Assembly (NCBI GenBank): GCA_944388385.1
Contig: CALXIO010000010.1
Coordinates: 1 to 64,000 of the forward strand
Direction of reading: 5' to 3'
DNA length: 64,000 nucleotides
Origin: an uncultured Ruminiclostridium sp.
GTDB taxonomy: Bacteria > Bacillota > Clostridia > Oscillospirales > Ruminococcaceae
The position numbers and the translations under genes are program-made. Position 1 is the stretch's first letter. Each line of letters opens with the position of its first letter. Positions 6,137 to 45,036 of the stretch are shown here, one piece after another. The notes beneath the pieces are model-generated. The model was not told the DNA's origin and did not search any database. It saw nothing but the letters and a program-made list of their open reading frames with translations.

Positions 6137-6868
6137 TTAGTTTGTAGCTTCTGTTGTTTTATTGTTTTCAGCCTTTGCTACCTTTTTATCGTGTATCATT
6201 CTTGCAAGGTAAACTATCGGTGTATCAAGCAGGCTTGTGAAGATATAAATTACATAGCTTGATAAGAAAATGGAAATAAGGGTTGCTACATCATAAGTTC
6301 CTGCAAAGGCGAATAAGGTAAACAATGCAGTATTAAGTATCTGGCTTATGAGTGTGGAGCCGTTATTTCTGAGCCACAGGAATTTTCTCTTGTTGCCGAA
6401 CTTCTTTGTGGTAAATTCCCACCACTTATGATAAAGCCATACATCGAATAACTGGCTTATTGCGTATACAACAAGGGATGCGATTATCATTCTGGGGGTG
6501 TTTGAAAATACTGTCTTTATTGATTCCATTGCAAAGTCACCCTCAGCAGGGGCATATAAAAGCCAGCTTTGTGACAATACAAGGAAGAATATTGAGGAAA
6601 ATACACCGGTAAGTACCGCCTTGTTTGCGGCCTTTTTGCCCTCACATTCCGATAAAATATCGGTTATAAGGAATGTTACCGCAAAAAGCACATTGCCTAA
6701 AGTCTGTTCCATGCCAAAGGCATTGATAAGGATAATAACCTCAATGTTTGCAAGCACCGTTGCAAGGGCGGACAGGCAGTAAAGTCCTGTTTTTCCGAAA
6801 AACGCATATCCCACAAGGGACATACCGTAAATAAATACAACTGAACCTATAAGTAATAATTCATTCAT
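6137..6868 (-). CDS. yhhQ: Queuosine precursor transporter, YhhQ/VUT family
   Basis: 243 residues with about six membrane segments. Family features include the acidic cytoplasmic loop TDILSECEGKKAA, the central WLYHKWWEFTTKK segment, and the C-terminal LLDTPIVYL helix followed by a basic tail. E. coli YhhQ imports the queuosine precursors preQ0 and preQ1; chlamydial homologues take queuine, so the exact substrate here is open. It is the second gene of an operon with a radical SAM enzyme (4-bp gap) and is followed by a clear terminator. The annotation VUT family transporter is equivalent. Confidence 0.88.
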   Translation of the reverse strand: MNELLLIGSVVFIYGMSLVGYAFFGKTGLYCLSALATVLANIEVIILINAFGMEQTLGNVLFAVTFLITDILSECEGKKAANKAVLTGVFSSIFFLVLSQSWLLYAPAEGDFAMESIKTVFSNTPRMIIASLVVYAISQLFDVWLYHKWWEFTTKKFGNKRKFLWLRNNGSTLISQILNTALFTLFAFAGTYDVATLISIFLSSYVIYIFTSLLDTPIVYLARMIHDKKVAKAENNKTTEATN

Positions 6869-6872
6869 AATA

Positions 6873-7580
6873 TCAATCTCCTACTCCGAAATCTAAATTG
6901 CTTATCAGTATATCCACTCTTGCGTTGTCCTTATAGATTGGATATAGCTTTTCCATAAAGGTATCAATAACCGCCTTGTCAGGCTTTATCTGTGAGGTAT
7001 TGTCACACATGATATTGATACAGATACGCTCAAACAGTTTAAGTCCCAGCTCAATATCGTTTTTCATGCTTTCGTAGGTCTGACCTGTGACCCCGAATAA
7101 GAAATTGGCTTCATCAAACTGCTTTGCAATAATTTTTGGGTCCTTTTCCTCTATTCCCTTTTTAAGGACATTCTCACGAAAGTCATAGTCAAAGGTTTCA
7201 AGACCCAGCTTCATTTTCAGAATAAAGCCGTCAAATTCTTCTCTCAGCGCCTTTATTCTGTCCTTGTAGAGATAGTGAGCTTCAAAATGAATTATCACTA
7301 TGTTTTTTTCACGGCATATTCTTTTGATTTCCTCTATGGTGTTTTTATCCAGCTCAAAAACCGAGCCTGAATTTATCACCTCAAGGTCGCCGTAAAGACT
7401 TCTGACATGACTTAAAACCTCTTTATTAAGCCTGAAGTTTTCGTCAGCGTCAGAACAGCTGTCTGTATAATAATCACAGAAGGTGCATTTTTTATACACA
7501 CAGCCCTTTCCCCTGAGTAATACTATCTCACGGGGATTTTTTTCCTTGATTACACTGTACCTTTCCATAAATTTCGGCAT
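6873..7580 (-). CDS. Radical SAM enzyme, candidate queuine lyase (QueL-like)
   Basis: 235 residues, a compact radical SAM protein. The cluster-binding cysteines C27, C32 and C35 are spaced CX4CX2C rather than CX3CX2C; C42 is nearby. The protein fits a shortened TIM barrel. Co-transcription with a YhhQ transporter suggests queuosine salvage: a clostridial radical SAM enzyme (QueL) is known to release preQ1 from queuine. Assignment to QueL is inference from size, taxon and neighbour, not a recognised signature. The ribosome binding site AAGGG lies inside the 3' arm of the leader terminator hairpin, so folding would also hide it. Confidence 0.6.
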   Translation of the reverse strand: MPKFMERYSVIKEKNPREIVLLRGKGCVYKKCTFCDYYTDSCSDADENFRLNKEVLSHVRSLYGDLEVINSGSVFELDKNTIEEIKRICREKNIVIIHFEAHYLYKDRIKALREEFDGFILKMKLGLETFDYDFRENVLKKGIEEKDPKIIAKQFDEANFLFGVTGQTYESMKNDIELGLKLFERICINIMCDNTSQIKPDKAVIDTFMEKLYPIYKDNARVDILISNLDFGVGD

Positions 7581-7586
7581 AAAAAA

Positions 7587-7721
7587 TACCCTTACAAAGA
7601 AGGGTAAAAAATTTCATAGGTATCCTTATGCCTTTCCTCCTTAGTTTTGTTTCGGATGACCCAAAAGGGCGGTGTTTTGTTTCACCGTATATCATCCAGG
7701 CAGGATGGTTACGAACTGCCG
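7587..7721 (-). promoter_or_regulatory. Structured attenuator leader, candidate riboswitch (preQ1-I-like in part)
   Basis: Transcript elements in order: a 5'-terminal hairpin GGCAG (7716-7720)/CTGCC (7699-7703) with a 12-nt loop beginning UUC and ending C; a long hairpin closed by GGATGA/TCATCC (7692-7697 with 7654-7659) enclosing a CGGTG/CACCG stem; an A-rich GAAACAAAAC strand (7644-7653) running into CTAAGGAGG (7636-7644); then a terminator TACCCTT/AAGGGTA (7587-7606) with six U ending at the start codon. The first loop length, the A-rich strand and CUAAGG resemble preQ1-I riboswitches, but the expected loop pairing is incomplete and the inserted hairpin is atypical. Confidence 0.55.
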
Positions 7722-7727
7722 AAGGAT

Positions 7728-7756
7728 ATTTTAGCATAAGAATATCGATTTGTCAA
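7728..7756 (-). promoter_or_regulatory. Promoter of the radical SAM-yhhQ operon
   Basis: TTGACA (7751-7756), 17-bp spacer, TAAAAT (7728-7733). The predicted start near 7721 falls immediately before the first leader hairpin. Confidence 0.85.
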
Positions 7757-7770
7757 TATTTATTCTATTT

Positions 7771-10146
7771 TTATCCAAGCTCAGCTACAGTTACACCGGC
7801 TTCACCCTCACCGTATGCACCGTCACGGAAGCTCTTTACATGGGGATTTTTACGAAGGTAATTCTGTACAGCGGTACGCAAAGCACCTGTGCCCTTGCCG
7901 TGGATAATGGTTATAACACTGATACCGCTTACAAGACAGTTATCAATAAATCTGTCCACCTCAAATACACCCTCATCACCCAGCATGCCTCTTATATCAA
8001 GCTCCATTCCTGCCTTACGGGTTATCTTTCCGGAATATGCCTTGCCCTGCTTAGGCGGTTGCTTTTTAGGCTGCTCCTTCTTTTCCACAAGGCGGAGATT
8101 TTCAAGCTTGGTTTTGGTTTTCATGGAGCCTATCTGTACAAAGCAAACATTCTTCGCATCAGGAAGCCTTACAAGTGTACCCTCCTTGTCAAGATCAGCA
8201 AGCCTTACAGTATCTCCCACCTTTAAGGGTCTTGGCAGTACATAATGATCCAGCTTTTTCTGAGCAACAGGGTTTGCGGTTTCATACATACTGTTCACAG
8301 CAGAGTTCACCCGTGAACGAGCACCCTTTACCCTCTGGGAAAAGTCTGCGCTTTCCTTTTCATGGCGGAGCTTTTCAAGATCCTCCATAAGAAGATCTCC
8401 TTGAAAACGCACTTCCTCAATTATACTCTGAGCCTGTTGTCTTACAGCCTGTAATTCCTTTTCCTTATCCTGTTCAAGCTGTGTTCTTTCCTGTTCAAGT
8501 CTTGTTTTAAGCTCTTCTATTTTTCTTTCGTCCGCCTTTGCCTTGTCCTTTAGCCTATCAAGCTCAATACGGGATTTTTCAAGGACTTCAACTACCTCCT
8601 CAAAGCGCTTGTCCTCGTTGCTTACAAGCTCATTTGCTTCATCTATAATTTCAGCAGGAATACCGAGCTTTTGTGAAATCGCAAAGGCATTTGATTTACC
8701 GGGCATACCAACAATAAATCTGTAGGTGGGCTGTAATGTCTTTATATCAAACTCGCAGGAGGCATTTTCAACACCGTCTGTACGAATAGCATACATTTTT
8801 ACCTCCTGGTAATGGGTGGTAGCCATTACCTTACAGCCTCTTATTTGCATTTCATGAAGAATAGCCACCGCTAAGGCAGAGCCCTCCACAGGGTCGGTAC
8901 CTGAGCATAATTCATCAAGGAGTACAAGGGAATTTTCCCCGGCTGTTTTCATTATCCTTACTATGTTTGTAATATGGGATGAAAATGTAGACAGGCTTTG
9001 TTCAATGCTCTGTTCGTCACCTATATCAACATATACCCGGTCAAAAATTCCTATTTCGCTTTCATCCCCTGCAGGTATCATCATACCGCACATGGCCATA
9101 AGCACAAGAAGTCCGGCTGTCTTTAAGGATACAGTCTTACCGCCGGTATTAGGGCCTGTAACTATAAGGGAATTATATTCCTGACCGAGAGAAATTGATA
9201 TTGGTACAACCTTATCCTTATCAATAAGGGGGTGTCTTGCCTTGTTTAATTTAAATCCGGGAGTGTCCTTTATAACAGGGGTTACCGCCCTCATTAACGC
9301 ACCTAAATCCGCCTTTGCAAAGTAGGTTTCTATTATGATTATATTTTCATAGTCGGAAATAAGCTGACCGCTGAAAGCCCCTACGCTTTCGGACATTTCC
9401 TTTATTATTCTTTCTATTTCCTCTATTTCACGGGATTTTAAAAGCCTTATATCGTTGTTTGCTTCCACTACGCTCATAGGCTCAATAAAAAGTGTAGCCC
9501 CCGATGAGGAGGAATCATGCACAAGACCCTTAACCTCACTTCTGTACTCTGTTTTTACAGGCACAACAAATCTGCCGTCACGCATGGTAACGATATTTTC
9601 CTGTAAATACTTCTGGGTGGTTTTGCTTTTTATAAGCCTGTCTAATTCTTCTCTGACAGACATACTTTTTCTTCTTATCGCCCGTCTTATGGAAGCTAAT
9701 TCCGGGCTTGCGCTGTCGGATAATTCATCCTCTGATATAATAGAGTCGGTTATCTGCTTTTCAAGGTGCTTGTTTTCCCTCAGTCGCTCAAAATAAGGGG
9801 TAAGAGTTCCCCCGATATTTGCACACTGGGAAAACCAATCACAAAGTCCTGTTACCTCTCTTAATACCTGTCCGATATCCATAAGCTCACGAAGGGATAA
9901 GGAGGAGCCCTGGGCGGCTCTTTTTGTGCTGTCGGAAATATCCTTTATATCCCCGAATGAGGGTGTACCGAATTTTGCAGATAAGGTAAAGGCATCATCG
10001 GTTTTTTGTATTTCTTCTTTTACTATGTCAATATCAAAGCAGGGCTCGATTTTCAGTATTTCCTCCTTGCAGGCCTTTGAATGTGCCCTTGCCGCAAGTA
10101 AGGAAAGCACCTTATCAAGCTCTAATTTTCTATATTCTTTTTTCAT
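7771..10146 (-). CDS. mutS2: MutS2 endonuclease/ATPase
   Basis: 791 residues, the family's usual length. It lacks the MutS mismatch-recognition domain and starts with the core/clamp region. The Walker A motif GPNTGGKT is at 331-338, followed by the Walker B/signature region (LVLLDELCSGTDP). A long charged coiled coil covers about 520-610, and an Smr nuclease domain ends the protein (LDIRGM near 713, IHGKGTGALR near 750). Roles reported for MutS2 are suppression of homologous recombination and rescue of collided ribosomes. It is the last gene of the recO-era unit; GGAGG of its ribosome binding site lies within the end of recO. Confidence 0.96.
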   Translation of the reverse strand: MKKEYRKLELDKVLSLLAARAHSKACKEEILKIEPCFDIDIVKEEIQKTDDAFTLSAKFGTPSFGDIKDISDSTKRAAQGSSLSLRELMDIGQVLREVTGLCDWFSQCANIGGTLTPYFERLRENKHLEKQITDSIISEDELSDSASPELASIRRAIRRKSMSVREELDRLIKSKTTQKYLQENIVTMRDGRFVVPVKTEYRSEVKGLVHDSSSSGATLFIEPMSVVEANNDIRLLKSREIEEIERIIKEMSESVGAFSGQLISDYENIIIIETYFAKADLGALMRAVTPVIKDTPGFKLNKARHPLIDKDKVVPISISLGQEYNSLIVTGPNTGGKTVSLKTAGLLVLMAMCGMMIPAGDESEIGIFDRVYVDIGDEQSIEQSLSTFSSHITNIVRIMKTAGENSLVLLDELCSGTDPVEGSALAVAILHEMQIRGCKVMATTHYQEVKMYAIRTDGVENASCEFDIKTLQPTYRFIVGMPGKSNAFAISQKLGIPAEIIDEANELVSNEDKRFEEVVEVLEKSRIELDRLKDKAKADERKIEELKTRLEQERTQLEQDKEKELQAVRQQAQSIIEEVRFQGDLLMEDLEKLRHEKESADFSQRVKGARSRVNSAVNSMYETANPVAQKKLDHYVLPRPLKVGDTVRLADLDKEGTLVRLPDAKNVCFVQIGSMKTKTKLENLRLVEKKEQPKKQPPKQGKAYSGKITRKAGMELDIRGMLGDEGVFEVDRFIDNCLVSGISVITIIHGKGTGALRTAVQNYLRKNPHVKSFRDGAYGEGEAGVTVAELG

Positions 10147-31402: not shown

Positions 31403-31668
31403 ATAAATAAACCCCGTCTCAATAAAGAGACGGGGTAATAACCTCGTGGTACCACTCTTCTTGACAGATAAATCTGTCCGCTTTAAGCCACATCTATCAA
31501 TGTGTTACTCTGTAACGGGAGCGCCCGTCATAACCTACTGCCAAAGGGTTCGGCCATGCTGCTCTTGGGTGAGTTATAACTGCCTTCAGATATTGCCTTG
31601 CACCAACCGGCAACTCTCTGTGAAAATCCAACAGGTTTTTTCCCAATCATCGCTTTTTCACTATTTAC
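31403..31668 (-). promoter_or_regulatory. T-box leader of leuA, probable leucine specifier CUC
   Basis: The T-box core AAGAGTGGTACCACGAGG is at 31442-31459 (minus strand), immediately before a strong terminator. Stem I occupies the 5' part; a CUC triplet at 31571-31573 in the context AUAACUCACC sits where a specifier loop is expected and matches leucine. Uncharged tRNA-Leu should favour the antiterminator. The 380-bp gap between leuA and hisS is thus fully explained by this element, its promoter and the hisS terminator. Confidence 0.88.
31412..31435 (-). terminator. T-box terminator hairpin
   Basis: CCCCGTCTC/GAGACGGGG, a 9-bp stem with a 6-nt loop, followed by TTTATTTATTA on the minus strand. 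Its 5' arm lies directly next to the T-box core, as needed for mutually exclusive folding. Confidence 0.92.
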
Positions 31669-44427: not shown

Positions 44428-45036
44428 TTATTTTTCAGCAGCTTTTTTGCTGAACACACATCCACAGTAATTCTGACGGTATAAATTATACTCCCCTGAC
44501 AGCTCAATAGACCTTTTATAGCCATTTCTTTTCTTGAAATCAGAGGGCAAAAAGGCTATATCATACTGCTTTGAAAGGGTATTTCCTATTTCGTTTATCC
44601 AGTCTGCATTTTTATGGGGGCTTACTGAAAGTGTGGTGCAAAAATAATCAAAATTATTTTCCTTTGCTGTTTTAGCGGCACTTTCCATACGGATTTTATA
44701 ACAGTCATAGCACCTGGCACCACGCTCAGGCAGGTCCTCCCTGCCCCTTGCCATATCAAAGAATATTTCCGGGGAATAGTCCCCGTCTATTACGGAAATG
44801 GGATTTTTAAATTCCTTTTCCGAAATAAAACGGTGAAGCTCATTTTTACGCTTTATATATTCCGGCTCTTCTGTGATATTGGGATTATAAAAATACAGGG
44901 TTATCTTAAAATACTCAGACAGATATTCTGTAACATAGCTGCTGCAAGGAGCACAGCAGGCGTGTAAAAGAAGTGTGGGAGTGTTAGTGAGATTTTTTAT
45001 TATCCTGTCTGTTTCTATCTGATAATTATTGCTCAT
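44428..45036 (-). CDS. queH: Epoxyqueuosine reductase QueH
   Basis: 202 residues. The DUF208/QueH cysteine pattern is complete: HACCAPCSSY (C27, C28, C31), RCYDCYKIRM in the middle, and the C-terminal YCGCVFS. QueH reduces epoxyqueuosine in tRNA to queuosine, the last step of the pathway, as an iron-sulfur alternative to QueG. It overlaps the upstream YcxB-like gene by 11 bp. A queuosine-salvage-like operon lies at 6.1-7.8 kb. Confidence 0.95.
   Translation of the reverse strand: MSNNYQIETDRIIKNLTNTPTLLLHACCAPCSSYVTEYLSEYFKITLYFYNPNITEEPEYIKRKNELHRFISEKEFKNPISVIDGDYSPEIFFDMARGREDLPERGARCYDCYKIRMESAAKTAKENNFDYFCTTLSVSPHKNADWINEIGNTLSKQYDIAFLPSDFKKRNGYKRSIELSGEYNLYRQNYCGCVFSKKAAEK

Follow-up and report, generated by a model that had tools for sequence, protein, structure and literature searches.

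An extra hairpin at the P1/L3 junction of a probable type I preQ1-I riboswitch before a queuosine-salvage operon in Ruminiclostridium

The preQ1-I aptamer is among the smallest natural aptamers known. In the type I structure from Carnobacterium antarcticum, two stacked preQ1 molecules are contacted by U6, U7, U16, C17, A30 and C31 below a C8-A12-U32 ceiling, above which lie G9-A33 and a proposed C10-G34 pair, and P2 is mostly non-canonical (PMC8752633). Type I members can be recognised by a conserved C in the tail and by UU and UC at the two ends of the loop, next to the 5' and 3' strands of P1, respectively (PMC11625349). In Clostridioides difficile, a preQ1-I riboswitch lies upstream of queK-qrtT-queL (PMC11477304). 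The preQ1-II and preQ1-III classes (RF01054 and RF02680) also sense preQ1 and carry an embedded hairpin, but they have another fold and another binding mode.

Here, we analysed a leader in a 64,000-nt stretch of DNA from an uncultured Ruminiclostridium sp., the whole of which is called the window. It is encoded by the minus strand and is flanked by mutS2 (7771-10146) and the two-gene unit queL-yhhQ; the features of the locus are as follows.

7728..7756, minus strand: sigma-70 type promoter TTGACA-N17-TAAAAT with an extended -10 (11 of 12 consensus matches)
7699..7720, minus strand: aptamer P1 GGCAG/CUGCC with a 12-nt loop UUCGUAACCAUC (bases 6-17 in the Can structure numbering)
7653..7698, minus strand: inserted closed hairpin at the P1/L3 junction (z -3.6 alone, folding against shuffles)
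7642..7652, minus strand: A-rich L3 and P2 strand AAACAAAACUA, with A30, C31, U32 and A33 of the type I pocket
7636..7642, minus strand: AAGGAGG, aptamer 3' end and predicted antiterminator 5' strand (from sequence)
7581..7606, minus strand: intrinsic terminator UACCCUU/AAGGGUA with U6; CCUUCUU (7603-7597) is the putative antiterminator partner
6873..7580, minus strand: queL, radical SAM queuine lyase, 235 aa (PDB 6p78 match)
6137..6868, minus strand: yhhQ/QPTR queuosine precursor transporter (TIGR00697 above cut-off; PF02592)
44443-44973, minus strand: QueH, epoxyqueuosine reductase family PF02677, a further queuosine gene in the window

The original prediction had described a promoter, a hairpin with a 12-nt loop, an inserted hairpin, an A-rich strand and a terminator bearing the SD, and this layout is accurate on the minus strand. 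A TG precedes the -10 box of the promoter. Since promoter-like sites were not commoner in the region than in shuffles (9 versus 11.8), support for this promoter comes from its position and the quality of the match; because it stops at 7728, transcription would be expected to start near 7721, nearly at the first P1 base (7720). The P1 strands (7720-7716 and 7703-7699) enclose the loop at 7715-7704, and the 46-nt insert has an outer stem GGAUGA/UCAUCC with two inner hairpins. The tail 3' of the insert is AAACAAAACUAAGGAGG; on the minus strand, AAACAAAAC (7652-7644) leads into CUAAGGAGG (7644-7636). The terminator UACCCUU-CUUUGU-AAGGGUA (7606-7587) is followed by UUUUUU (7586-7581), which abuts the queL AUG at 7580, and the queL SD is the AAGGG within the terminator 3' arm. 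The 146-nt leader folded at -39.9 kcal/mol (z -2.4 versus dinucleotide shuffles). QueL matched PDB 6p78, 'Queuine lyase', at E 2.5e-54 and also gave a weak RaSEA match, and its homologues start at a later AUG (MERYS). Elsewhere in the window, a T-box leader was found at 31423-31659 on the minus strand (124 bits), and a plasmid search gave no match.

We then compared the leader with the published type I aptamer. U6, U7, C8, G9, A11, A12, U16, C17, A30, C31, U32 and A33 (PMC8752633) are all in the window, including every contact base of the alpha and beta sites. P1 is short, the 12-nt loop starts with UU and ends with UC, and an A-rich L3 followed by CUA is provided by AAACAAAACUAAGG (7652-7639). 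Bases 10 and 34 are U and A, which still form a pair, while the other type I marks are identical. The loop-tail pseudoknot had been judged unconvincing, and its weak look probably reflects the mostly non-canonical P2 of the type I structure (PMC8752633) and not its absence; a weak P2 is usual in type I. The leader departs from textbook type I in one respect: L3 is usually, perhaps not obligatorily, directly continuous with P1, and here the 46-nt closed hairpin intervenes. This hairpin is real and is atypical, as first noticed. The assigned class and the control of a queL salvage operon are shared with the C. difficile case, compared here by description; the transporter there is QrtT and in the window YhhQ, and that report mentions no insert (PMC11477304).

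To collect homologous leaders, as the original prediction had proposed, we gathered 32 queL loci by QueL protein similarity alone, and the leader was not used for the choice. P1, loop and tail of the window type precede queL in 25 of these 32 loci, with the common hairpin NNCAG-UUCG[N]AACCAUC-CUGNN and the tail AAAACUANGG; because the loci were chosen by protein, this conservation is independent evidence. In one locus (L036), the hairpin and tail precede a divergent yhhQ, not queL, and the gap from P1 to the A-rich strand is just 5 to 8 nt in L003, L004, L025, L027-L029 and L036. We also searched a sample of 391 Clostridia genomes with a 16-mer for the loop alone, AGTTCGNAACCATCCT, which matched 69 of them; 10 of 71 genomes of the window's genus were also matched, and the reversed pattern used as control matched 1. 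The AAAACUA tail, which is absent from the search pattern, was present at 69 of 71 class-wide places, and the two pattern matches lacking it (L089 and L118) fall in coding sequence and are probably fortuitous. Tail positions A27-A33 are invariant in about 103 copies, and this is independent of the search pattern; the invariance of the loop is partly built in by the pattern in the class-wide set and is independent only in the protein-selected set. Base 10 can pair with base 34 in 61 of 98 distinct copies versus 45 +/- 4 when shuffled, a comparison not corrected for relatedness, and the two are unpaired in many copies. P1 covaries: 138 of 138 cells are paired, three pairs are changed on both sides, and 21 cells are changed on both sides versus 5.1 in shuffles, with nothing comparable when the partner was slid. 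Furthermore, a covariance model (R1) built from 23 insert-free relatives only found the P1 and loop of the window at E 1e-6. The genes downstream of the core encode QueT, QueL, YhhQ or QueC or form a queD-queE-folE-queC operon, i.e. queuosine synthesis, salvage or transport genes, and the insert-free core is spread across Clostridia before all of these. Taken together, the type I hallmark bases, the genes that follow and the homologues point the same way: the window element is very probably a type I member of preQ1 class I in which a peripheral hairpin separates P1 from the A-rich L3, in line with the first proposal of a variant preQ1-I riboswitch on a queuosine-salvage operon.

The Rfam models did not report this element. 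The preQ1-I model RF00522 gave the window 16.3 bits, below its gathering cut-off of 39 bits, and placed the stem wrongly inside the insert with the tail matched; since the threshold is a detection rule and not a structural property, we did not take this miss as disproof. No preQ1 match appeared at gathering score in the window and 20 homologous loci, and neither RF01054 nor RF02680 matched the window even at E 10. The consensus of RF00522 is aGuGG-UUCGuAAaCcUC-CCaCu-AUAAAAAACUAAGg, and its loop UUCGuAAaCcUC is of the same type as that of the window; unlike RF00522, which prefers GG/CC at the top of P1, the window has AG/CU. Insert-free copies scored 23.9-36.4 bits with RF00522, including L038 and L039 before queT-type genes, and these low scores are likely due to the AG/CU top of P1 and to the greater length of the strand that joins P1 to CUA. 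Even at E 2 the model failed to find the sampled copies that have an insert, and it thus misses both forms. Weak matches to Ysr49, RyhB, a CRISPR repeat and other families (E 0.01-7) were set aside as chance, the first two falling on the terminator.

To describe the inserted hairpin, we scored 105 places with the same core. An insert was scored at 37 of them, with one more in L103 on inspection, and about two thirds are without one. Each of the 35 distinct inserts is more stable than its dinucleotide shuffles are on average (mean z -3.1). In 33, the hairpin closes the whole segment, leaving 0 to 3 nt on its 5' side and 4 to 6 nt on its 3' side, and lengths range from 17 to about 230 nt. All 10 copies in the window's genus bear an insert, before queL and queT alike (L043-L045). 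Because separate families (f35, f43, f52 and f76 of the class sample) also bear inserts and insert-free related genomes exist within f35, f43 and f76, the P1/L3 junction has been opened repeatedly, an insert having arisen in at least four lineages. Most simply, the insertion is tolerated because it sits below P1 and does not disturb the pocket; a role in timing or stability is possible. It is unlikely, in our view, that the insert is a working module that docks on or stacks under P1 and tunes cooperativity or co-transcriptional timing, making a distinct preQ1-I architecture. The presence of the insert in all genus copies, like the embedded hairpins of preQ1-II and preQ1-III, might instead suggest a separate preQ1-sensing class, HL(out)-like in fold, in which the insert forms part of the pocket; this is hardly credible, given that the inserts differ in sequence and length, vary among close relatives and are absent in most copies, and that the models of those two classes do not match. 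The element thus varies a known type of control modestly and is not a new class. The novelty of the insert is judged within the literature searched; McCown et al. 2014, which reportedly defines the preQ1-I types, may already mention inserts.

Several further observations concern the inserts. Between 7690 and 7660 on the minus strand, the loop of an inner hairpin of the window's insert contains GAAACAAAAC, which exactly repeats the bases just ahead of the CUA tail of the aptamer itself. Very long inserts occur at the same junction in L012 (182 nt), L111 (about 226 nt) and L080 (97 nt), and are possibly small mobile or repeated elements. An apical motif, CCRAUAGG, is confined to L005, L008-L010, L014, L016, L018, L024 and near variants; since it occurs in one group only and is absent elsewhere, we treated it as shared ancestry and not as a functional element.

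We infer that the ligand is preQ1, that two molecules are bound and that the switch is OFF, through the following mechanism. Two preQ1 would stack between P1 and P2, read by C17 and C31, and would draw CUAAGG into the pseudoknot. Its capture would block the antiterminator AAGGAGG:CCUUCUU, and the terminator before queL would form; transcription would then halt in the U tract, and the SD within the terminator would be masked too. At low preQ1, the antiterminator would form and queL-yhhQ would be expressed. We examined the antiterminator in the insert-bearing queL leaders (n=23). In 14 of 23, the tail CUAAGGAG shows more complementarity to the terminator 5' arm than composition would give (p<0.05), and the pooled p of about 2e-12 is inflated by relatedness, which was left uncorrected. 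The complementarity is clearest in L009 (CUAAGGA against UCCUUAG), and in the window AAGGAGG (7642-7636) against CCUUCUU (7603-7597) gives -8.6 kcal/mol, with p about 0.1 alone. In a sister clade (L012, L020 and L022), another antiterminator is apparently used: AUGGUUAC, in the loop of the terminator, is complementary to GUAACCAU of the aptamer loop. Such complementarity to the aptamer loop, not the tail, is partly seen in L017 and L021 as well. With a tail- or loop-based antiterminator alike, ligand binding should free the terminator, giving an OFF switch.

In front of queT, the scan showed no terminator for many copies, which have AAGGAG adjoining the start codon and would therefore control translation. 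The same copies speak against a plain attenuator or a protein-binding leader without small-molecule sensing, a reading to which the existence of a terminator and alternative pairings does lend some colour. As the type I pocket bases are also invariant where simple base pairing does not demand it, we regard such a leader as very improbable.

Further, we surveyed the queuosine genes of the window's genome. The genes tgt and queA adjoin each other and queH is present too, while no queC, queG or queF was found over cut-off; because of this, the genome is read as capable of queuosine salvage only, and preQ1 must come from salvage. YhhQ would import queuosine precursors and QueL would make preQ1 from queuine, and because preQ1 must come from salvage, its feedback on queL-yhhQ makes sense as feedback by the product. 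Given that QueL and YhhQ handle queuine and related precursors and that the element is tied to salvage genes, the aptamer of queL leaders could in principle have shifted to queuine, the QueL substrate, perhaps as an ON switch on the type I scaffold. However, the core before queL is identical to that before queT and queC, both published preQ1 sites are intact, and terminator and antiterminator are arranged as in an OFF switch, which makes a shift to queuine very unlikely. Because of the shared core we rejected a queuine-specific class, and with the published sites also intact, the earlier suggestion of a new queuine/preQ1-sensing class is not supported.

These results point to an annotation gap: the Rfam cut-off excludes clostridial type I preQ1 switches that have this loop, whether or not they carry the insert, and most of the regulation of queuosine salvage therefore goes unannotated in gut Ruminococcaceae and their relatives. 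Moreover, a tiny aptamer that accepts a large insertion at one precise junction, gained several times, is useful for engineering.

One side observation concerns queuosine synthesis. In L119-L128, L135, L136, L138, L139, L141, L143 and L144, we observed a PF06050 gene together with a BadF-type activase; the former resembles 2-hydroxyglutaryl-CoA dehydratase component D and weakly matches the double-cubane reductase NF040772. Many of these Clostridia have the pair at the head of a queD-queE-(folE)-queC operon, and 11 genomes have it under an insert-free riboswitch of the preQ1-I type I kind. We predict that an ATP-dependent iron-sulphur reductase replaces QueF (preQ0 to preQ1), the PF06050-activase pair being probably the missing enzyme of queuosine synthesis; no paper in the literature searched links a PF06050-type reductase to the QueF step. 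QueF was found in 38 of the 391 sample genomes and in 0 of the 26 with a PF06050-type gene (overlap 0, p 0.06). In the genera g124 and g144, genomes have either QueF or the PF06050-type gene.
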